From Thermoflexus hugenholtzii JAD2 (GTDB lineage Bacteria; Chloroflexota; Anaerolineae; Thermoflexales; Thermoflexaceae), in assembly GCF_900187885.1 (NCBI RefSeq), contig NZ_FYEK01000071.1:1-64000 (forward strand): a stretch of 64,000 nucleotides of DNA. Direction: 5' to 3'. The position numbers were made by a program, and so were the translations under genes. Below are positions 52,937 to 63,284 of this stretch, one piece after another (position 1 is the stretch's first letter; every line of letters starts with the position of its first letter). The notes below the pieces were generated by a model. The model ran no database searches and was not told the origin of the DNA. It worked only from the letters and a program-made list of their open reading frames with translations.

Positions 52937-54127
52937 TTATCCCGGAAGCGTGGGATCCTCAATGCGCCACACCGTCCCGACCGGGAACGCGGGGTCCCGG
53001 GAGGCGATGACCACCGCCTGATTCCCGCGGGGCTCGAAGACCGCAAGGGCCGGCCGGCCGGCGCAGGCGCGGGCCAGGGCGGTGAACAGCCAGAGGGGCA
53101 GCTTCCCGTTCAGGACGAGAAGCCCTTCCTCCGGGATCGGGGGCAACAGCAGGCCTTCTGTTTCCTCCCGCTCTACATAGGGATGGCGGAACGTGGCCCG
53201 GAGCCGCCACCCCCCCGGCGCGCGTTCGACCGTGAACGCCAGCGGAGATGAACGGTCCGCTGTCCGTTCCTCGCCCTCCGTCGCCCATCGGAAGCGCGGG
53301 GGTTCCACCCAGCCCAGCCGGACGTCGAACTGGAAGAAGGGCGCTGGGAGGGCGTGGACGGCGAGGGCGGCGTAGAGCCAGGCCGGGCCGCGACCGTAAA
53401 GGGCCAGGGGCTTGCCCTCGGGGAGGAAATCCAGCATCCGGGGCAGATCCTCCGGGGCCCAGCGCGGGGCCTCCCCCTCCCGGCGGATCTCCAACATGCG
53501 GGCCAGATCATCCAGGTCGATCACCCAGTCGATGTCGGGGGCCATGGCCAAGTGGTAGCGGCGCAGCTCCTCCGGGTCGTAGCGGAAGAGCGCCGCGATC
53601 CGCTCGGCCAGCGCCTCAAAGACCGACCCCTCCGCCATGCGACCCCGCTCCAGGCCGGTGATCACCCCGCGCAACACAGGGGCCTCCTCGAGGATCTGCG
53701 AGGAGCCTTCCAGCCGGGAGTCCAGATCCGCGATCAGGTGGAGGCCGTAACGCCGGACGCGCTCCTGCCAGACCGGGCGGGCCGCGGGATCCCGGATGAG
53801 GAGGATCGCGTGGGTGACCACGCCCAGGATCCGCTCCTGCTCCGGGGTCGGCATCCCTCCCACATCCACCAGCAGCGGCAGATGGCGACGCCGGATGTCC
53901 TGGACGATCCGATCCACCCAGCGTTCATCGAAGGCCCCCTTGATCCGGAGCTGCCGGGCCAGCCGGGGCTCCGCCTCGTGAAACCAATCCCCTTCCCCAT
54001 CCGGTGCCGCCCGCAACACATAATGGGCCACGCCACGCTTCCGCAAGGATTGTGATAGACTATATGTTAGAACGGATTTACCGGAGTTCGGCGGCCCTCC
54101 GATCAGCACAGCGGGAAACAGCTCCAT
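52937..54127 (-). CDS. csx3: P-loop protein fused to two Csx3-like ring-nuclease modules
   Basis: A 396-residue fusion. Residues 1-220 form a P-loop NTPase-like domain (Walker A VLIGGPPNSGKSVLTYS at 7-23; VDVGGMPTPEQ at 88-98). Residues 238-274 (GKPLALYGRGPAWLYAALA, then PFFQFDVRLGWV) and 298-392 (LLVLNGKLPLWLFTALARA, then LAVFEPRGNQAVVIAS) both look like Csx3, the ring nuclease that degrades cyclic tetra-adenylate in type III CRISPR immunity. The first copy keeps GRGPxWLY and DxR; the second has GKLPLWLF and ExR. Divergence from the CARF-HTH gene with only 46 bases between strengthens the link to the locus. Activity is inferred. Confidence 0.8.
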   Translation of the reverse strand: MELFPAVLIGGPPNSGKSVLTYSLSQSLRKRGVAHYVLRAAPDGEGDWFHEAEPRLARQLRIKGAFDERWVDRIVQDIRRRHLPLLVDVGGMPTPEQERILGVVTHAILLIRDPAARPVWQERVRRYGLHLIADLDSRLEGSSQILEEAPVLRGVITGLERGRMAEGSVFEALAERIAALFRYDPEELRRYHLAMAPDIDWVIDLDDLARMLEIRREGEAPRWAPEDLPRMLDFLPEGKPLALYGRGPAWLYAALAVHALPAPFFQFDVRLGWVEPPRFRWATEGEERTADRSSPLAFTVERAPGGWRLRATFRHPYVEREETEGLLLPPIPEEGLLVLNGKLPLWLFTALARACAGRPALAVFEPRGNQAVVIASRDPAFPVGTVWRIEDPTLPG

Positions 54128-54173
54128 CGGGATCCTCCATATCCGCAAGAGATGGACCTGTGGGAGGTGGGCC

Positions 54174-55055
54174 ATGGAACCCAGACCGGCCAGCACGATG
54201 ATCGCCACGCTGGGCGGGCAGCCACAGGTGATCACCTTCGCCCTGGACGCCTTGCTGAGCCGCGGTGAGCAAATCGTGGAGGTCGTGGTGTTGCACCTCG
54301 CCCCCCAGGATCCCCGAACCCGTCACGCCCTGGAACGCCTGGATCGCGAGTTCCCCAATGATTTCTACGCCCATGCCCGTCGCTCGATCCGCCTGCGCCG
54401 GGTCATGCTGAAGGATCTCCGGGGCCCCATGCTGGATATCACGGATGAGCGCGCGGCCGAGGCCGTTCGGATGCAGATGATGGAGATCCTCCAGGCGGAG
54501 AAGGCGCAGGGCCGTCCCCTCCATGTCGTGCTGGCCGGGGGACGACGCCTGCTCGCCCTGATGCTCTTCCTCACCGCGGTGGTGCATCTGGATTATGCAG
54601 ATCGGGTGTGGCATCTCTATACCCCTCGCGCCTTCCTGGAGAGAGCGCGGGACGGCCGGCGGATGCACGCGCGGCCGGAGGATGGCGTGCGCCTGATCGA
54701 GGTGCCCTTCCCCCGTTGGGGGGCGGACTTCCCCGCTTTCCGACAGCTGACCTCCCTGCAGCTGGGGCAGATCGAGTCCCCGGCGGATCGGATCGGGCGT
54801 TGCCGGCAGGTCTGGGAGCGGTTGACGCCCGCCCAGCGTCGCGTGCTGGCGGAGGTCGTCCGCTGCGAACACCTGTTGCAGGTCGCGGAGGCCCTGCGCC
54901 GGTCGCCCAAGACCGTGGACTCCCATCTTGAAGCGATCAAAGCGATCTGCCGCGAGACGTGGGGCCTGTCCTCGGACCATCGTCTCTCCTATCGGGATCT
55001 GCGGGAATGGTTCCGCCCCTTCGCGCCGTTCATGGACCTTTCCACAACCCGGTGA
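54174..55055 (+). CDS. NE0113-type CARF protein with C-terminal helix-turn-helix
   Basis: A 293-residue protein. The N-terminal domain (about 8-190) has MIATLGGQPQVITFALDALL, YAHARRSIRL, DITDERAAEAVRM and LHVVLAGGRRLLALMLF, the pattern of the Cas_NE0113/CARF family that binds cyclic oligoadenylate. Residues 217-262 (RLTPAQRRVLAEVVRCEHLL, SPKTVDSHLEAIKAI) form a LuxR/GerE-type HTH. It is therefore predicted to be a transcription factor controlled by cOA, analogous in plan to Csa3 but with another HTH. The start follows GGGAGGTGGGCC. It lies upstream of csx15-cas6 and is divergent to the Csx3 fusion. Confidence 0.8.
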   Translation: MEPRPASTMIATLGGQPQVITFALDALLSRGEQIVEVVVLHLAPQDPRTRHALERLDREFPNDFYAHARRSIRLRRVMLKDLRGPMLDITDERAAEAVRMQMMEILQAEKAQGRPLHVVLAGGRRLLALMLFLTAVVHLDYADRVWHLYTPRAFLERARDGRRMHARPEDGVRLIEVPFPRWGADFPAFRQLTSLQLGQIESPADRIGRCRQVWERLTPAQRRVLAEVVRCEHLLQVAEALRRSPKTVDSHLEAIKAICRETWGLSSDHRLSYRDLREWFRPFAPFMDLSTTR

Positions 55056-55158: not shown

Positions 55159-55190
55159 ACATCCGGTCGTCCCCGGATGCGCATCCGGTC
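55159..55190. promoter_or_regulatory. candidate operator upstream of csx15
   Basis: A perfect 16-base palindrome, CCGGATGC-GCATCCGG (55173-55188), lies 60 bases before csx15. The half-site CATCCGGTC is also repeated directly, at 55160-55168 and 55182-55190. The arrangement resembles a dimer-binding site. The CARF-HTH protein encoded just upstream is the obvious candidate ligand (inference). The rest of 55056-55247 holds no gene; TACACT at about 55221 may be a -10 box. Confidence 0.45.
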
Positions 55191-55247
55191 TTTCCCTGAT
55201 GTCCAGCCTGCTGGGCTCGGCTACACTTCGGGGCAAAGGAGGCCGGC

Positions 55248-55661
55248 ATGATCGTCCTGAACTTCGCTCATCCCCTTACACCGGAACAACAGCGACAGAT
55301 CGAAGCTTTTGCGGGGCAGCCGGTAGAACGGGTCATCACCATCGACGCCCAGATCGATCCCGCGCGGCCCCTGGTCCCTCAGGTGGCGGCCATGGTGGAC
55401 CGGGTGGGGTTCTCCCCGGAGGAATGGCAGACCCGGCCCATCTTGCTTCTGTTGCCCTCGCTGAACTACAGCGCCGGGGTGCTGCTGGCGGAGCTTCACG
55501 GCCGCATGGGGTATTTCCCATCGATCATCCGGATGCGGCCGGTTCCGGAGGCCGTCCCACCGCGATTTGAGGTGGCGGAGATCATCTCCCTGCAGGCCGT
55601 GCGGGAGGCCGCGCGCGCCCGGCGGGGCGCGTCGGAAAGGAGGGAGAGCGATGCGTCTTAA
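55248..55661 (+). CDS. csx15: Csx15 family CRISPR protein
   Basis: A 137-residue protein matching Csx15: MIVLNFAHPLTPEQQRQIEA at the N-terminus and LLLLPSLNYSAGVLLAELHG in the middle. Csx15 is a small Rossmann-like protein linked to type III systems and reported or predicted to bind or degrade cyclic oligoadenylate. Its last 11 bases overlap cas6. It is GC-rich like the host genes, in contrast to cas10 and downstream genes. Confidence 0.8.
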   Translation: MIVLNFAHPLTPEQQRQIEAFAGQPVERVITIDAQIDPARPLVPQVAAMVDRVGFSPEEWQTRPILLLLPSLNYSAGVLLAELHGRMGYFPSIIRMRPVPEAVPPRFEVAEIISLQAVREAARARRGASERRESDAS

Positions 55662-56457
55662 GGTCACGTTGCGCTTCGTGCGTCCGGGCCGGTTGCCCTG
55701 GGGCTATCCGGAGTGGCTGCGGGGCCTGGCGTATACGGCGATGCGGCGGGGGTTGCCCCAGGTGGCCCATCGGCTTCACGAGGAGGGGTGGCAGGGCCCG
55801 GAGGGGCGCGCCTACAAGCCCCTCACCTACTCGTGGCTGCATGGCCTGCGGCCGGATGGGAGCGGGCTGTGGGCGGAGGGGTCGGTCACCTGGTGGGCCT
55901 CCTCGCCGATTGAAGCGGTGGTTGAGGCACTGGCCCTGGGGCTGCTGCTGGAGCCGGAGGTGGCGCTGGGGCCACATCCGGTGCAGGTGGAGCGTATCGA
56001 GGTGGTCCCGGCGCCTGAGGTGGAGGGGTCGATGACCTGCGTCACCCTGTCGCCCATTACAGTCTCCACAGGCGAGCGGCGGTCGGACGGGCGACTGGTC
56101 AAGCGGTATCTTTCGCCGGAGGAGCCGGCCTTCGCGTCGGCGTTAGCGGAGAACCTGCGGCGGAAGGCCGCGGCGTTTTACGGGCAGGAGATGCGGGGGG
56201 AGGTCGTCATCCGACCGCAACCGCCTTATCGCTCCAAGCTCGTGCGCATCCATGACACCGACATTCGGGGGTGGATGCTGCGGCTGACGCTGGAGGGGGA
56301 TCCGCGGCTGCTGCGCCTGGCCTACGAAGCCGGCCTCGGCGAACACACCGCCAGCGGCTTCGGGATGGTGGCCATGGCCCGAGAGCAATGGGAGAACCCC
56401 TCTCCCCATGACGCTCGAATTCTTAAACATTTTGTCCACTTTCGTGCATCTCAATAA
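55651..56457 (+). CDS. cas6: Cas6 crRNA-processing endoribonuclease
   Basis: A 268-residue RAMP-fold protein. It starts MRLKVTLRFVRPGRLPWGYP. The last segment is YEAGLGEHTASGFGMV, the glycine-rich GxGxxxxxGFG loop of Cas6. Cas6 cuts the CRISPR transcript within repeats. Likely catalytic His residues are present early in the protein (AHRLHEEGW), not proven. Start ATG 55651 has aaggaggg; it lies within the end of csx15. It still has host-like codon use. Confidence 0.85.
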   Translation: MRLKVTLRFVRPGRLPWGYPEWLRGLAYTAMRRGLPQVAHRLHEEGWQGPEGRAYKPLTYSWLHGLRPDGSGLWAEGSVTWWASSPIEAVVEALALGLLLEPEVALGPHPVQVERIEVVPAPEVEGSMTCVTLSPITVSTGERRSDGRLVKRYLSPEEPAFASALAENLRRKAAAFYGQEMRGEVVIRPQPPYRSKLVRIHDTDIRGWMLRLTLEGDPRLLRLAYEAGLGEHTASGFGMVAMAREQWENPSPHDARILKHFVHFRASQ

Positions 56458-56478: not shown

Positions 56479-58725
56479 ATGATTTTAAATTTAATTAATT
56501 CGTTTAAATCTGAGTTTTCTGAGAAGCTTTACAGATCAGACTATCTCCTTGCGGACACCCGCATTCCCTGGGTGTCGCTCTATGATCATTTGATACTCAC
56601 GGCCGGGTTTGCCGCCGCCCTTGCCGAGGAACTTCTTCGACGTGGCAGGACAGCAATGGAGATATGCGGGATAGAGCTTTCACCCTCCGAACTGCGGGCC
56701 CTTGCCCGCCTGTGTGGGCTCTTGCATGATCTGGGGAAAGCACGAATCGGCGAAATGGAGTACCGATTCCACGTCCAGAGAAGTGTGGAATATGCGCGGG
56801 AGTGGCTTGCTGCGAAGGGTGTGGAGGAGCATCTCCAGGAGATCATCCTGGGCGTAGTGGCGCGCCACCACCTACGAGATGGACCGCAGACAATCCTGGA
56901 GAAACTGGTCTGCCTAGCCGATAGCTATGCCTCCGCCGGGGATCGCCCCGAGCTGGCGCGAGCCTATACGGCAACCGAATTCCAGCGGCTTGCAGGAGAA
57001 ACCCTCCGCCTGGAGCAAGAGCTTTTCGGTGCCGACAAACCTGTTTGCTTGCTTCTGGGCGATACGGACGCCATCAAAAGCTACGTGTACGAGACGAGCA
57101 CGCTTCCCGAGATCCGCGGAGCAAGTGAAATCCTCCAGGAGCTGGAGGAGAACGTTCGCGGGCTTTTTACGGGGAAGCTCGCTGAAGAAGCCCTCATTTA
57201 CTGCGGCGGAGGAGGCTTCCTCGTCATCGTTCCCGCAAGTCAAGCGGAAGAGCTAAAGCAAGAGATCGAGCGGCTCTATCTGGAGAAAACCGGTGTTGCC
57301 ACCATAACGGTCGTCTCCTCAGATCCGCTCGGCTACGCCGACATTGGGCGGGGGCTTGCTCCCTACGACGATGTGCAGGTTCGGGCGCTTTCCGGAAGGG
57401 GTGTTGCTGCCGATCTGCTCTTTAGCCACTTTGAGGCACTCCTCGCAGACCGCACGAAACGCAAAAACTTCGGTGAGTTGGTGTCAGCGCTGACCGGTAG
57501 GCTCCAGCAGCAGAAACGGGCAAAGGCTACAGCCCCGTTCCTGGAGACCTTACCCGTCCACCGACGGTGTGAATCCTGCGGGAAGCGGGCGGCGGAAGTG
57601 CACGACGATGCGCGGGACGAATGGATCTGCGTGATCTGCTCCCAGAAACGGGAGCATGGAAGAGGTGAGCGCCGAGAGTTCGTAAAAGAGTTTGTTCGGT
57701 GGGTGTATGAGAACAAGCGTGTCGAGATTCCCGAAAAGACGCCTGATGGAAGGCCCCGTTTTCCCGAAGACCTGGACACCTTAGCCGGATCGGACGGTCG
57801 GATTGCCCTTTTCTACGCCGATGGGAACAACATGGGCGACCTCCTGCAACTGATGCCCTCGCCCGCCTCGTATCGCCACTTCTCCCGAATGTTGGAGCAG
57901 GCGACCCGGGATGCCCTTTTCTCAGCAATCTGGGCGGTGTTTGACGAAGAGCGCCTGAAGGATCCTGGTAAACCACTGCCCTTCGAAATCATCGCCCTCG
58001 GCGGGGACGACATCGTGGTCATCGTGCCTGCACGCTACGGCTGGGCATTGGCAGTCAAGGTCCTTGAAGCCTTTGAGCAGCACCCTGGTATTGAGAAGCT
58101 TCAGAAAGAGCTTCAAGGGCGAGTGGGAAACGCCCTGCGCCGTCCTGTCTCGCTCAGTCTTTCCGCCGGGCTGGCGATTGCCGATGTGAAGTATCCAGTG
58201 AGCTTTCTCTTCTCGCTGGCCGAAGGACTCCTCAAGGAAGCGAAGAAGCTGGCACGAGAGGTCCATACCAGCACGCTCTGCCACCTCTGGTTGCGGGCGC
58301 CGGTGATTTCGGAACGAGCAGATGTGCTGCTGAGCGCCCTGTATGCGCGACAGAGGATGGTGCTCACGGCGCGTCCCTACACGGCGGAGCAGGCGCGGAG
58401 GCTTGCGAAGCTGGTCCACAGTCTACAACAACTGCCCAAGGCTCAGCGACACTCGCTGGCGGAAGCCCTCGAAAAAGGCGTGCATGTTTCGCTGAACTAT
58501 GCCCTATATCAGGCGGCCCGGCAAAAGGAACGCGGCGCACAGCTTCGTAAGGCGTTTCAAGAGCTGGGAAACCTCCTGGAGCCTGCAATGGACGGCTTCT
58601 GGTTCTGGCGCTGGACGGACGAGGGCTGGAAGACGGCGCTTCTGGACGCGCTGGAACTCATCGAGCTGGGCGCTGTGCTGGACATCCCACGGGAGGAACA
58701 TTATGCCCTATCGGCTACAGATTGA
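56479..58725 (+). CDS. cas10: Cas10, type III large subunit with HD and GGDD
   Basis: A 748-residue Cas10. The HD nuclease domain is at the N-terminus (CGLLHDLGKARIG with HD at 83-84; VARHHLRD at 128-134). Palm 1 is at about 190-330 with its loop worn to GGGG (YCGGGGFLVI). A zinc knuckle is C364, C367, C384 and C387 (CESCGKR and CVICSQK). Palm 2 has YADGNNMGDLL at 446 and an intact GGDD at 508-511 (IIALGGDDIVVIVPA). It should make cyclic oligoadenylate upon target RNA binding and cut ssDNA. A+T content rises abruptly at its start (see findings). Confidence 0.93.
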   Translation: MILNLINSFKSEFSEKLYRSDYLLADTRIPWVSLYDHLILTAGFAAALAEELLRRGRTAMEICGIELSPSELRALARLCGLLHDLGKARIGEMEYRFHVQRSVEYAREWLAAKGVEEHLQEIILGVVARHHLRDGPQTILEKLVCLADSYASAGDRPELARAYTATEFQRLAGETLRLEQELFGADKPVCLLLGDTDAIKSYVYETSTLPEIRGASEILQELEENVRGLFTGKLAEEALIYCGGGGFLVIVPASQAEELKQEIERLYLEKTGVATITVVSSDPLGYADIGRGLAPYDDVQVRALSGRGVAADLLFSHFEALLADRTKRKNFGELVSALTGRLQQQKRAKATAPFLETLPVHRRCESCGKRAAEVHDDARDEWICVICSQKREHGRGERREFVKEFVRWVYENKRVEIPEKTPDGRPRFPEDLDTLAGSDGRIALFYADGNNMGDLLQLMPSPASYRHFSRMLEQATRDALFSAIWAVFDEERLKDPGKPLPFEIIALGGDDIVVIVPARYGWALAVKVLEAFEQHPGIEKLQKELQGRVGNALRRPVSLSLSAGLAIADVKYPVSFLFSLAEGLLKEAKKLAREVHTSTLCHLWLRAPVISERADVLLSALYARQRMVLTARPYTAEQARRLAKLVHSLQQLPKAQRHSLAEALEKGVHVSLNYALYQAARQKERGAQLRKAFQELGNLLEPAMDGFWFWRWTDEGWKTALLDALELIELGAVLDIPREEHYALSATD

Positions 58726-59350
58726 GACAAAGTTCGGCCTTGTCTCCGGTTTGCACATCACCGGGGAGCAGAGCAAGCTCTGGACGGACAGAGCTCTGGT
58801 AGTGGACTGGCGCGACGGCAAAGTTCCCATTGTTCCTGCGACCACAATCAAGGGCTGGCTCCGGGAGAGCGCAGAGCGAACGCTGCGGGGATGGGGTCAG
58901 CGGGTGTGCGACGGCTCTCGCCCCGGAGAGATGTGCAACGCATGCTTGGTTTGCGAGGTCTTTGGATCACCCCGGAGGCGCTCTCCCTTGCGCTTCTCGG
59001 ATGCCGAGCTTCGTGAGGGCATGGCGGATGTGCGCATGAACGTCTCGCTCAGCCGCCATCGCAAGACCGCGTATGAGGAGCGGCTCTTCTCCACCGAGGT
59101 CGCCTGGCAGAGGGAACTTGCGGTGCACATCGAGGGCTGGTTCGGTTCGCGGGCAGAAGCTCAGCAGGCAGCTGCTCTCTTGTATATAGCGGCGAAAGCC
59201 GGCTTTGCGATCGGGGCAGCGCGCTCCCGGGGATTGGGCTGGCTCGAGCTGGTGGATTTCACAGCGAGCGTGGACGGCGAGAAACTCCTGGACGAAGACC
59301 TTGTAGCACAGAGCAAAGCGCTTGTATCCCGGACGGAGGGTCCTGCATGA
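58703..59350 (+). CDS. RAMP protein, Cas7/Csm3-like
   Basis: A 215-residue RAMP. VPIVPATTIKGWLRESAER is the Cas7-type start of the first glycine-rich region. CNACLVCEVFGSPRRRSPLRF is the typical zinc-like C-x-x-C-x-x-FG motif. Near the end AIGAARSRGLGWLELVDF is the Gly-rich loop. It is one of the backbone subunits of the III-D effector that line up along the crRNA. It starts at ATG 58703, inside the end of cas10, after GGGAGGAA. Confidence 0.85.
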   Translation: MPYRLQIETKFGLVSGLHITGEQSKLWTDRALVVDWRDGKVPIVPATTIKGWLRESAERTLRGWGQRVCDGSRPGEMCNACLVCEVFGSPRRRSPLRFSDAELREGMADVRMNVSLSRHRKTAYEERLFSTEVAWQRELAVHIEGWFGSRAEAQQAAALLYIAAKAGFAIGAARSRGLGWLELVDFTASVDGEKLLDEDLVAQSKALVSRTEGPA

Positions 59351-60543
59351 CGGAATACTTCGTCTGCCTCACGCCCGAAAAGCCCCTGCGCACGGGCACG
59401 CTCAAGCCCCGGGGGGATTATCTCGACACGCGGGATTACCTGCCCGGCAGCGTCCTCCGGGGCGCGCTAGCTGAATGGCTCAAGCTAGAGGGGAAAGCAA
59501 GCCAGATCGTCCCGACAGTGCAAAAGGTGCGCTTCGGGAATTTCTTCCCCAGTGTTGCAGAGTCTGTATGGGCTTTGCCCTTCCCGATGACGGCACTGGA
59601 GTGCAAGTTGCATGGAGGATTTCGGCGCATCCCCAGGGGTTCCACAGAAAAACCTGGACACGGTATCCGGGATAGTCTGCTCATCGCCCTGGCGTATGCA
59701 GAGCTGGAACGGCAGGGTGTGCGCTTTCCGGTGCCCATGCTCCTGCGCTGCACCCATGAAAACAAAGGAGAGAAGTGCGGCGGGCGCATGGAACGAGTGA
59801 GCGGTTTCTATGCAGCTCTGCCCGAAGGCTGGAGGGCGATGAAGATCGAAAAGGCACTCCAGACCAAGGTTGCACTGAGCCGCCATCGCCGCGCTGCCCA
59901 AGAAGGGATGCTCTATCGGGTAATCGGAGTGCGACCGAAAGGCACATTCGTCGGGCGGATCTGGGTTGAGGACGAGGCAATCCTCGAGGAGCTCAAGAAA
60001 GCGGTGGAGAGCGTCGGAGTCGGCGCCCTCACGACCCGAGGGTTCGGCGCCGCGCGTCTCAAGGCGGTGGAACCCGGCATAGAGCCTATCGCCGAGCGCC
60101 TGCGCACCTTCAACGAGAAACTGCGCGAAGTGTGGCGAGACCTGGCGGATCTGGCCCAGCAGACCGGGAGCCCAGTGCCCACAGAGCCATCGGGGACCTA
60201 CTTCAGCGTGGACCTGCTCTCGCCCGCTGTCCTCCGGGACCCGCACGGGTTGCCCACGCTGAAGCTCTTTCTAAAGCTCGACGGACAATGGCGGGAGCCG
60301 ATCTTCTGGGCGACGCAGCATACCTTCGTGGGCGGCTTCTCCACAGCCTGGGGACTGCCCAAGCCCACCTACCTGGGCGCGGCGATGGGAAGCGTGTATG
60401 TGTTTCGAACAGAAGCTTCCCAAGAGGAGCTCCTGCCCTTCCTGGAAGACCTAGAAGCCCGGGGCGTTGGGATCCGCACCGACGAAGGACTGGGCGAAAT
60501 TTTGGTGTGCCACCCATTTCATCAGGAGGTAATGCCGGTATGA
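59347..60543 (+). CDS. csx10: Csx10 family RAMP (Cas5-like subunit of type III-D)
   Basis: A 398-residue protein with two RAMP halves. The start is MTEYFVCLTPEKPLRTGTLK, followed by TRDYLPGSVLRGALAEWLKL, typical of Csx10. It has CTHENKGEKCGG, LSRHRRAAQEGMLYRVIGV, and GVGALTTRGFGAARLKA. The second half has FVGGFSTAWGLPKPTYLGAA. Csx10 is the hallmark Cas5-type subunit of subtype III-D and binds the crRNA 5' tag. It overlaps both neighbours by four bases. Confidence 0.85.
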   Translation: MTEYFVCLTPEKPLRTGTLKPRGDYLDTRDYLPGSVLRGALAEWLKLEGKASQIVPTVQKVRFGNFFPSVAESVWALPFPMTALECKLHGGFRRIPRGSTEKPGHGIRDSLLIALAYAELERQGVRFPVPMLLRCTHENKGEKCGGRMERVSGFYAALPEGWRAMKIEKALQTKVALSRHRRAAQEGMLYRVIGVRPKGTFVGRIWVEDEAILEELKKAVESVGVGALTTRGFGAARLKAVEPGIEPIAERLRTFNEKLREVWRDLADLAQQTGSPVPTEPSGTYFSVDLLSPAVLRDPHGLPTLKLFLKLDGQWREPIFWATQHTFVGGFSTAWGLPKPTYLGAAMGSVYVFRTEASQEELLPFLEDLEARGVGIRTDEGLGEILVCHPFHQEVMPV

Positions 60544-61046
60544 TGCCAAATATCAAAACTCTTCAGGTTATTGAGCAACAATGGCTGGATCGCGTGGTAG
60601 AGCTGGCAGAACAAACGATGCGGTCTTCTAAGGTCTATGGAAAGCAGTGTAAGGATAACCACTGGAGCTTGAAAAAAGAATGTCCAGAGTGCCGAGCTAA
60701 AACTTCTGACATACTGCAACGTGCTCAGCTTTCAAATCTTCAGAATTTAGCAAATTCCAGCGATTCAGTTAAAGCGCTGGAGCTATTTATCCGCTATCAA
60801 ATGGGGCGAAAGGAAGGCAAAGGCTGGCGTTACACAGGCAATAGTGATTCCTCGTTTGGATCTAAGGTGATCGAAGACTTTAACCAGTTAGGTAAATGGT
60901 CGGAGCAAATTGCGCGTGACTCCGGCGAAAGTAATCCTAAGTCTGTGCATTTGTGGCTGATTCGGCTGTACTGCGGCTTTTTGAGCCGGTGGTTCGTTGC
61001 TCTGAAGGGTGGTGAAGAAGAAGTAGAGGCCGTCGAGGAGGAGTAA
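60540..61046 (+). CDS. Cas11-like small subunit of type III-D
   Basis: A 168-residue, largely helical protein between csx10 and the next RAMP, where the small subunit (Csm2/Cas11) belongs. It carries YGKQCKDNHWSLKKECPECR (a possible zinc C-x..C-x-x-C) and ends in EEEVEAVEEE. The middle YQMGRKEGKGWRYTGNSD is shared with small-subunit proteins of III-D loci as far as I recall. GC content is the lowest in the window. Start ATG 60540 or 60543 (adjacent), overlapping the csx10 stop. Confidence 0.7.
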   Translation: MMPNIKTLQVIEQQWLDRVVELAEQTMRSSKVYGKQCKDNHWSLKKECPECRAKTSDILQRAQLSNLQNLANSSDSVKALELFIRYQMGRKEGKGWRYTGNSDSSFGSKVIEDFNQLGKWSEQIARDSGESNPKSVHLWLIRLYCGFLSRWFVALKGGEEEVEAVEEE

Positions 61047-61049
61047 ACC

Positions 61050-61946
61050 ATGCACTCGTTCTGGCACTTTGAAAACCGCTGGTTGATTACCGCGACCCTG
61101 CGGATGAAGACCGCCCTTTCTGTGGGCACCCGCGCGTCGCTCATGCCTGCAGGCTCTGACCTTCCTGTTATCAAGACCCCGGAGGGCATCCCCTTCATCC
61201 CAGGCTCCTCGCTCAAGGGTGTTGCACGCGCGTATGTGGAGCGACTCCTACGCACGGTGGACAAGCTCGGGCAGACCCACCAGGATGAAAGACTCTGGGC
61301 ATGTGACCCGCTGGATGAGAGTGAGTGCTGCGTAATCGCGAAATGCTGTGAGCATTGTGAAAACTGTAAGGGGAATTGCTGTCACGATTGCAGCCGGTGC
61401 AAGAACTGTATGGTCAAACGTGCAATGCAGAATAACCGGCTTGACGATGAGAAGCTCACACAGGAGATCTGGCAGCGCTCCTGCACCGCCTGCCGGCTCT
61501 TCGGCTCCCCCTGGCTGGCGTCGCGGATCTCGTTTCAGGATGCCATGCTCTTGAATCGGGAGAGCCTGCTCCGGCTCACCGAAATCCGCGACGGTGTGGG
61601 GATTGACCGCGACCTGGGCTCAGCGAAAAGCGGCATCAAATATGACTTCGAGACTGTGCCTGCGGGAGCGGAGTTCGGCATTACCATCGTGGTAGAAAAC
61701 GCCGACGAATGGGAGGTAGGACTGTTGCTCCTGGCGCTGGAAGCGATGCGAAAGGGCGAACTCCCCGTGGGCGGCAAGACCACACGCGGTCCTGGCTGGG
61801 GAGAAATTGTTGACCTCAAAATCCAGAAGGTGGGCAAGGAAAACCTCCTGGACTACCTCACAGGCATGGGACAACCTGCGGAGATTTTGCATTCGGAGCT
61901 TTTGCAGAGACTCGTAACAGCCTTGCAAGGAGGGAGCCATGCATAA
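61050..61946 (+). CDS. RAMP protein, Cas7-like, with a cysteine-rich insertion
   Basis: A 298-residue Cas7-like RAMP. The first glycine-rich part is GIPFIPGSSLKGVARAYVER. CTACRLFGSPWLASRISFQD is the CxxC-FG motif. GKTTRGPGWGEIVDLKI is the final loop. An insert at about residues 90-125 holds 12 cysteines, among them CCEHCENCKGNCCHDC and CKNC, enough for two or three zinc sites and unusual for Cas7. It probably builds the effector backbone, with Asp residues in the thumb for target RNA cleavage. It overlaps the next RAMP by eight bases. Confidence 0.85.
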   Translation: MHSFWHFENRWLITATLRMKTALSVGTRASLMPAGSDLPVIKTPEGIPFIPGSSLKGVARAYVERLLRTVDKLGQTHQDERLWACDPLDESECCVIAKCCEHCENCKGNCCHDCSRCKNCMVKRAMQNNRLDDEKLTQEIWQRSCTACRLFGSPWLASRISFQDAMLLNRESLLRLTEIRDGVGIDRDLGSAKSGIKYDFETVPAGAEFGITIVVENADEWEVGLLLLALEAMRKGELPVGGKTTRGPGWGEIVDLKIQKVGKENLLDYLTGMGQPAEILHSELLQRLVTALQGGSHA

Positions 61947-62826
61947 GCGCCGCTGGAACGCTCTGAAGCTGGAACTTGTGATCGAGCCCCGAGCCCCGCT
62001 GCTCATCAAATCGGGGCTGACTTCGCCGAACCCTTCTCTTCCTGACATGCAGTTCGTGCGCACGATGACACCCCGGGGCGAGATGGTCTTCATCCCCGGT
62101 TCTTCACTCAAAGGGACGTTTCGGAGCTTTACGGAGAAGGTGCTGCGGACCGTAAAACCTGATGGCGCCTGCGAGCCGTTCCCCTCCAGCCCAAGTTACT
62201 GCGTCACTCGCTACCGGTTAGCAGACGAAGAAGATCCGGCGAAGGTCTATCAAAAGTCCTGCCGCGCCTGCAAGATCTATGGAAACACCCGTCTTAAGGG
62301 TCGGCTCTCCTTCACAGATGCCTTTCCCGAGGGGACGGTCAAGACCGAAACCCGCCACGGCGTGGCGATCTCCCGATTGACGAATGCGGTGGCCGCGGGA
62401 CCCTTCGACATCGAGGTGCTCGTGCAGGGGCGATTCCGGACTGCGCTTGTGCTGGAGAACTTTGAAGCCTGGCAGATGGGGCTCCTGGCGCTGACGCTCC
62501 AGGCAATCAATGACGGGCTGGTGAAGCTGGGCTTCGGCAAGAACCGGGGATTCGGCGAGGTCTCCATGACCGTAGAGCAAGCTGTCGTGGTGCTGGCTAA
62601 AAAGCCAGACCTTCTTCGCAACGCCATTTGGGGCGTAGGAGCCTTTGTGGACGAGGGGGAACGCCAGGCTTACGGGCTTCGGGAGGCAGACCGGCTGGAG
62701 GAGCTGCCCGAGGGGGCGGAGACGGATCTTGCCGTCTTCGTCCAGCGCACCTACGACCGAGAAGCATGGCAGAGGGTGGCTGAGAAGGCGATTGAATCCC
62801 TCACGCAGGTGCTGGAGGCAGCATGA
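61939..62826 (+). CDS. RAMP protein, Cas7/Csm3-like
   Basis: A 295-residue Cas7-like subunit. MVFIPGSSLKGTFRSFTEKV, CRACKIYGNTRLKGRLSF and VKLGFGKNRGFGEVSMT are the standard RAMP landmarks. C-terminal residues after 210 form a separate segment. It belongs to the type III-D backbone. It overlaps its upstream neighbour and ends four bases into the csx19-like gene (ATGA). Confidence 0.85.
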   Translation: MHKRRWNALKLELVIEPRAPLLIKSGLTSPNPSLPDMQFVRTMTPRGEMVFIPGSSLKGTFRSFTEKVLRTVKPDGACEPFPSSPSYCVTRYRLADEEDPAKVYQKSCRACKIYGNTRLKGRLSFTDAFPEGTVKTETRHGVAISRLTNAVAAGPFDIEVLVQGRFRTALVLENFEAWQMGLLALTLQAINDGLVKLGFGKNRGFGEVSMTVEQAVVVLAKKPDLLRNAIWGVGAFVDEGERQAYGLREADRLEELPEGAETDLAVFVQRTYDREAWQRVAEKAIESLTQVLEAA

Positions 62827-63284
62827 TGCGGGGATGGGTCTATTCGGGCGAGCTTGGCACGGACGAGCTCGCGCAGCTCATCGAGCGGCTTCCTAAGCGT
62901 GTGATCCTGAGCTGGGAGCTTGCGCGGCTGGATTTTCCGAAGGGTCTGGAGCTTCGCGATGCCGGGTGCGCATTTAACCGTGAGGCGGAAATCCGCTGGG
63001 AGAAGATCGCCGAAAGGCGCTGTCGGGTTTGGGTCCTGAGCGACAGCGAGCGCAACGACCTGCCCGATACCCTCAAGTCCGTCGATGGCGACTGGGAGAT
63101 CTCGGAATGCGAGACCCGGCTGATCAATCTGGAGGACAAGCGATTTGCGCCACAGTTCGATCTGTACCCAGTGGCAAACAGACCAGAAGCCCAGCTGATG
63201 TGCCGGGTGTTTTATCGGGATAAGATCGCAACCTTTGTGAGCCCGCGGGAGGTGAAGACCGATGCCCAGGAATCCGAATGCTGA
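62823..63284 (+). CDS. csx19: Csx19-like type III-D protein
   Basis: A 153-residue protein. The segment ELRDAGCAFNREAEIRW is the 'ELR-F-N-E-W' pattern I associate with Csx19. A C-terminal beta region follows (LMCRVFYRDKIATFVSPREV). Csx19 is found in type III-D operons with csx10. Its role is unproven and may be structural. It overlaps the RAMP genes on both sides. The alternative is an unnamed small subunit. Confidence 0.6.
   Translation: MMRGWVYSGELGTDELAQLIERLPKRVILSWELARLDFPKGLELRDAGCAFNREAEIRWEKIAERRCRVWVLSDSERNDLPDTLKSVDGDWEISECETRLINLEDKRFAPQFDLYPVANRPEAQLMCRVFYRDKIATFVSPREVKTDAQESEC

Follow-up and report, generated by a model that had tools for sequence, protein, structure and literature searches.

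What can a CARF protein that ends in an HTH domain do in a type III CRISPR locus? The question is raised by a gene of Thermoflexus hugenholtzii JAD2 located within the stretch of 64,000 nucleotides analyzed here (the window), at positions 54174 to 55055 of the forward strand, which encodes a protein of 293 amino acids with an ATG start codon and GGGAGGTGG upstream (hereafter, the regulator, or P0001; L-numbers and G-numbers denote loci and genomes, respectively, and C71 is the contig of the window). This is not a chance open reading frame because homologues are present in 127 of the 396 genomes of the class, most of them matched over nearly the full length, and the closer homologues with available flanking DNA nearly always lie beside a divergent AAA-Csx3 gene. 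The best-supported reading of the sequence evidence is that the regulator is a transcription factor responsive to cOA, given that its HTH is LuxR-type both by profile and by predicted fold, is conserved, and is accompanied by a probable operator.

The CARF domain spans approximately residues 1–188 (54174 to 54737). The Cas_NE0113 profile (PF09623) matches residues 16–188 with an E-value of 8.8e-33 and a score of 114.3 bits against the cut-off of 23, and all 11 members of the homologue alignment A1 match the same profile. The preliminary description, made from the sequence alone, had noticed the NE0113/CARF pattern in the N-terminal part and proposed a profile search as a check, and this search bears the pattern out. 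The PADLOC profile CARF3--CARF (PDLC01855) matches residues 6–283 (E-value of 5.8e-93), so that, by profile, the regulator is a nearly full-length member of the Cas_NE0113/CARF3 family. Motif 1 (TLGGQPQVIT, residues 12–21) and motif 2 (GGRR, residues 122–125) are recognizable, TLGGQPQ and GGRR are conserved across the homologues, and G122 and G123 are found in 99-100% of the 75 sequences. The Foldseek neighbours of the AlphaFold model of this part (pLDDT of 87 for the whole regulator) are Sso2081/Crn1, Csa3, Cad1, and Cam1; a sequence search of the PDB with the regulator produced no match. By profile, motifs, and fold, this part is a CARF domain, the predicted sensor of a cyclic oligoadenylate.

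The LuxR/GerE-type HTH was delineated at residues ~216–288 (54819 to 55037, + strand), with the recognition helix at residues ~245–262 (PKTVDSHLEAIKAICRET). The window copy scores below the threshold of the GerE profile (PF00196; E-value of 0.0091, 16.1 bits against the cut-off of 23.5), and all 11 homologues in alignment A1 match this profile with E-values not exceeding 0.01, the best one being 3.6e-12. The AlphaFold model of this part (pLDDT of 93) is all-helical, with no wing and no strand behind the recognition helix, and its Foldseek matches are VqmA, EL222, StyR, NarL, RcsB, VpsT, FixJ, LiaR, and GerE; the E-values are weak (0.03–1) because the domain is short, and the probabilities are mostly 0.9–1.0. 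The Csa3 models remain below their cut-offs (14.1 of 27 bits for Csa3_N, PF22662; 25.5 of 60.2 bits for cas_HTH, TIGR01884). Thus, the GerE-like C-terminal HTH of the preliminary description is confirmed by the profiles of the homologues and the predicted fold, with the window copy alone falling short of the cut-off. Its conservation in homologues, the lack of which had been named as grounds for abandoning the proposal, is evident, and the contrast drawn with the winged HTH of Csa3 holds.

A protein of this fold could, alternatively, function mainly as a ring nuclease, with the HTH-like tail as a dimerization scaffold and no role in transcription. Indeed, Foldseek ranks the Sso2081/Crn1 ring nucleases first for the CARF part, related CARF families are named ring nucleases in NCBIfam, and the HTH region of Csx1 merely links domains (PMC9704534). 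The ring-nuclease model TIGR03642 (Csx14), however, scores 45.9 of the required 90.35 bits, and no nuclease family, whether HEPN, as in the Csm6/Csx1 nucleases, or other, was found in the regulator with the Pfam, NCBIfam, and PADLOC profiles, in agreement with the nuclease-free architecture proposed earlier. The HTH forms the very C-terminal end of the protein, is conserved, and has a recognition helix that co-varies with an adjacent DNA motif (see below), and the ring-nuclease role in the locus is already filled by AAA-Csx3 and Csx15, which makes this alternative very improbable.

The genomic context is that of a type III-D system. The gene for the AAA-Csx3 fusion, which includes a ring-nuclease domain, was identified by profile searches as the divergent partner of the regulator gene (52937 to 54127, - strand). 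On the + strand, csx15 (55248 to 55661; NF040560, 4.6e-51), with which the proposed target operon begins, is followed by cas6 (55651 to 56457; TIGR01877, 2.9e-36), cas10 (56479 to 58725), and the III-D RAMP genes, csx10/cas5 and csm3/csx7-like cas7 (58664 to 63284), which overlap or closely adjoin the preceding genes. The divergent Csx3 fusion and the downstream csx15-cas6 pair reported in the preliminary description are thereby corroborated. Cas10 contains an HD domain and the palm motif GGDD (...EIIALGGDDIVVIVP...), which is intact in the window. Past the end of the window, this series of close or overlapping genes extends as far as the second CARF gene (L083:2029-3027; C71 about 65028-66026), which ends the III-D series, matches PADLOC CARF5 (4e-153) as well as PF09623 above the cut-off, and might serve the locus as its cOA effector. 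The 171-codon gene before it appears PIN-like by eye and has no PADLOC match. A third CARF-type gene (L083:3215-4183; C71 about 66214-67182; CARF3, 1e-25) is followed by a type I-B operon that starts with cas8b (2.9e-124), so that III-D and I-B systems adjoin in this genome; no operator array of the kind described next precedes this cas8b. A direct-repeat search of C71:63000-92796 found no CRISPR array.

The 192-bp gap between the regulator gene and csx15 contains two tandem 20-bp dyads and the hexamer TACACT. Predicted operator dyad A (55160 to 55179; CATCCGG-TCGTCC-CCGGATG) has no mismatches to the symmetric pattern; predicted dyad B (55182 to 55201; CATCCGG-TCTTTC-CCTGATG) is centred 22 bp from dyad A, and the -10-like TACACT (55222 to 55227, + strand) begins 20 bp past the dyads. 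Both dyads, the 22-bp centre spacing, and TACACT at near-fixed spacing are conserved in all seven aligned Thermoflexus loci, and the tandem pattern adjoins the regulator gene in each of the eight Thermoflexus genomes that have this gene. The ninth Thermoflexus genome, G175, contains no match to the regulator; the only pattern found there has one mismatch and a counterpart elsewhere in the other genomes. Single dyads with up to two mismatches occur at 160 places in the 3.2-Mb genome and hence are uninformative, whereas the tandem arrangement is informative. A single dyad at C71:89365 and a tandem match at C71:75412, each with one mismatch, were not accepted as operators.

The preliminary description had singled out two pieces of DNA for a binding test. 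The one at 55159-55190 includes the distal dyad along with roughly half of the proximal dyad. In the one from the divergent AAA-Csx3/CARF gap (54128-54173), no tandem array is present, nor is there one in the corresponding gap of most relatives, where this gap is often shorter than 40 bp or replaced by an overlap, and an operator in this position was rejected. In L051 and L114, a single dyad is located just 5' of the CARF start, which suggests that some relatives may autoregulate. In the AAA-Csx3/CARF gaps of L100, L105, L110, and L115, a TATAAT-like element lies roughly 8-12 nt 5' of the CARF start codon; the regulator mRNA of some relatives may therefore be leaderless. The G010 genome carries a second exact tandem copy of the operator (G010:C1:1263044-1263083; L086:45-84) upstream of a 527-codon gene, the product of which contains a zinc-finger-like CPFCG motif and has no NCBIfam match.

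The arrays extend beyond Thermoflexus. Downstream of the CARF stop codon, a de novo search for pairs of dyads spaced by 22 bp yielded CATCAGA-N6-TCTGATG arrays in distant genera, and in 0.84 Mb of non-Thermoflexus DNA, core pairs peak at 11, 22, and 33 bp, which corresponds to a half-site in every helical turn. A PWM was applied with each tested locus's own sites excluded (relatives of the training loci remain, so that the test is not fully independent); 31 of 74 loci have a score of at least 10 within 700 bp 3' of the gene that is also the best in the locus; the exception among the 31 is L106, where the sole better-scoring site is a second array. These site counts are not independent, given that many homologues are related. 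Strong arrays were also detected in loci outside the training set, 25–118 bp past the gene in L186, L187, and L202, and 42–44 bp past it in L211 and L221, which belong to other classes, with no array in many of the other loci of these sets. No array after the gene is recognizable in about half of the loci of the class or in most of the examined loci of other Chloroflexota classes. Genome-wide, the pattern matches in 29 of the 396 genomes, with about half of the matches away from the gene, so that the association of arrays with the gene rests on the gene-adjacent matches.

Typically, the array is located just after the regulator gene and before cas10, cas6, or csx15. The first gene past the array encodes Cas10/Csm1 in L048, where this was tested, with the same HD-Cas10 start in L049, L052, L053, L098, L100, and L104; Cas10/Cmr2 in L066 and, similarly, L071; Cas6 in L106 and, similarly, L105, L110, and L115; and a III-D-like Cas10 with a weak Csm1 match in L101. 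In Thermoflexus, this gene is csx15, and in L043 and L103 (the latter tested), it encodes a CARF-like protein without an NCBIfam name. The second array of L106 lies upstream of cmr1. One strong tandem array, likewise followed by a -10 at the typical spacing, lies in L185 (6260-6301; G020:C182), from a genome in which the search for CARF-LuxR homologues gave no match; about 900 bp downstream of it are the starts of a cas3-like gene and of a gene for a WYL-like regulator.

The arrays are phased to the promoter. Of the 29 arrays, 27 are followed by a TAnnnT element, which had been left out of the PWM, starting 19–21 bp downstream, and in 17 the distance is exactly 20 bp; this places the centre of the proximal dyad at about -42.5 and that of the distal dyad at -64.5 relative to the predicted start. 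A dyad near -42.5, as in the lux box, is the class-II activator geometry of LuxR-type activators. This is the position of the arrays here, by analogy with these activators, with which the regulator shares the C-terminal GerE-family HTH and a 20-bp dyad at about -42.5. No -35/-10 promoter was recognized on the + strand at the csx15 site, where there is no recognizable -35. The phasing also bears on the possibility that the dyads are RNA hairpins, that is, a terminator or attenuator of the CARF gene, rather than operators. Located 3' of the stop codon, the dyads do fold into hairpins (z from -2.4 to -4.4), but no terminator-like site was found, and the fixed 22-bp centre spacing, the 11-bp periodicity of the half-sites, and the fixed distance to the -10 would be unexpected for hairpins. 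We consider this explanation hardly credible.

Which protein binds the arrays? The half-sites vary with the recognition helix of the regulator. Helices with D/N-S/T-H-K/N are accompanied by CATCAGA half-sites, with C in position 4 in 64 of 68, and H-A-H helices by CATTGGA half-sites, where position 4 is T in 9 of 12 and C in none of the 12. The Leu252 of Thermoflexus goes with TCCGG half-sites (G in position 7 in 24 of 24), and R/Q252 helices go with TCCGA half-sites (C in position 5 in 8 of 8). The groups are small (three genes for HAH, two for R/Q252, and a single genus for L252) and were formed after the sites were known, so that this co-variation is suggestive, not decisive, in pointing to the regulator as the binder. 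Binding by another regulator, such as a WYL protein, might be indicated by the L185 array because no homologue was detected in its genome and the WYL-like gene and cas3 lie some 900 bp downstream of it. Nevertheless, no other conserved DNA-binding gene was seen beside the arrays, where the regulator is the conserved DNA-binding neighbour; the arrays lie directly 3' of the CARF-LuxR gene, and their half-sites co-vary with its recognition helix. Recognition by another protein is therefore quite unlikely.

The regulator is probably a dimeric cOA-sensing activator of the type III operon, with AAA-Csx3 as the off-switch. Under this scenario, the Cas10 of the locus would make cyclic oligoadenylate on target RNA, and the CARF domain of the dimer would bind it. 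The ligand is probably cA4 because Csx3 is a cA4 enzyme, a family of cA4-cleaving ring nucleases (PMC12409355). The LuxR-type HTHs would then bind to 55160-55201 as a pair of dimers on the same DNA face, filling all four half-sites, and the proximal dyad at about -42.5 would allow recruitment of the polymerase to the -35-less promoter of csx15-cas6-cas10-RAMP. Infection would thus lead to more of the cOA-making complex, in a feed-forward manner, and the divergent AAA-Csx3 together with Csx15 would remove cOA and reset the switch; Csx15 is reported to be a ring nuclease that oligomerizes upon cyclic-nucleotide binding (PMC13148439). This activator reading draws on the computed domain architecture, conservation of homologues and arrays, -10 phasing, target genes, and helix co-variation; we infer the identity of the cOA, the binding of cOA and DNA, activation rather than repression, and the feed-forward dynamics.

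It is solely the position of the site that suggests activation as the sign of regulation, and the same protein and operator could operate with the opposite logic: the ligand-free regulator would maintain basal expression and be released by cOA, or would repress until cOA binds, resulting in negative feedback or derepression. The effects of ligands on CARF regulators vary, a cOA analogue having strengthened the binding of Csa3b at csa1 (PMC7480081), whereas cA4 had no effect on the binding by Csa3Sso (PMC8844856), and Csx15 and Csx3 of the same module lower cOA. Dyad B at -42.5 before a -35-less promoter is, however, in an activator position, even if this leaves unspecified which ligand state is the activating one, and we regard the opposite logic as unlikely. 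Control by cOA is not to be assumed either because Csa3 of S. solfataricus binds cA4, and cA4 left its specific DNA binding unchanged in vitro (PMC8844856).

Homologues of the regulator are found also in other classes of the Chloroflexota phylum. Among the closer homologues, nearly all loci with sufficient flanking sequence have AAA-Csx3 divergently encoded back to back with the regulator, whereas the most distant homologues (about 25-33% identical) mostly lack this neighbour. In the close relative G010, the regulator is 94% identical and Cas10 only 38%, which implies that the regulator and effector modules evolve separately; it seems, from this comparison, that the effector module was swapped behind a retained control module. 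Alignment of window positions 56479-62826 with L085 of G010 gives ~38-50% identity for Cas10 and the RAMP proteins, compared to 93-96% for the regulator, AAA-Csx3, Csx15, and Cas6.

How much of this is new? Less than the preliminary description implied: direct regulation of transcription by NE0113-type CARF proteins was predicted by Makarova et al. in 2014, with winged HTHs for most CARF families (PMC4012209), and the family is already in PADLOC-DB. The CARF family, the PADLOC profile, and the general idea of NE0113-type transcription regulation are therefore known. In the literature searched, we found no description of a LuxR-type HTH, an operator, or a target for the Cas_NE0113/CARF3 family, and no LuxR proteins with a CARF sensor. 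Relative to this literature, which does not extend to the 2020 CARF classification that may hold a part of it, what is new is the attachment of a LuxR-type HTH to a CARF sensor, the tandem operator and the way it is phased to a bacterial -10, the role of the type III operon as the target in many genera, and the conserved module formed with the divergent AAA-Csx3 gene.

Several known systems are comparable. Csa3, in particular Csa3b, from archaeal type I-A loci similarly combines a CARF sensor with an HTH and lacks an enzymatic effector, and archaeal Csa3 was the sole experimentally characterized non-nuclease CARF effector in a 2022 review (PMC9704534). At the type III-B cmr promoters of Sulfolobus islandicus, Csa3b binds and acts as an activator, which has been suggested to increase cOA in Sulfolobus (PMC7480081). 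Csa3, however, has a winged HTH and acts at archaeal promoters, in contrast to the bacterial regulator, with its LuxR-type HTH and with tandem 20-bp dyads in phase with a bacterial -10. The activators of the LuxR/NarL/FixJ/GerE type sense through an autoinducer-binding, receiver, or PAS domain, and the regulator through CARF. RtcR (CARF, NtrC-type AAA, and HTH) is likewise a bacterial CARF-controlled activator of transcription but is sigma-54 dependent, controls RNA repair, and senses damaged RNA rather than Cas10 products (PMC7790460, PMC9650030, PMC4012209). CalpL/CalpT/CalpS also converts the cOA signal into a bacterial transcriptional response (PMC11229360), but does so by SAVED-Lon proteolysis of an anti-sigma factor, whereas the regulator is a one-component CARF protein.

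The regulator thus would be a LuxR-type one-component sensor of bacteria for which an operator, a start site, and a target operon are predicted. A direct test of cOA feedback on bacterial CRISPR transcription would require just one protein, a 60-bp DNA, and a reporter; the regulator is also a possible cOA biosensor. The switch reading would also explain why the divergent pairing with AAA-Csx3 is conserved. On a broader scale, we consider it an evenly balanced proposition that many Chloroflexota run type III CRISPR as an inducible, self-amplifying circuit in which cOA would act through a CARF-LuxR class-II activator of the cas10 operon, AAA-Csx3 would set the threshold and reset the system, and further operons would be included in some genomes, such as cmr1 in L106 and the gene past the second array of G010.
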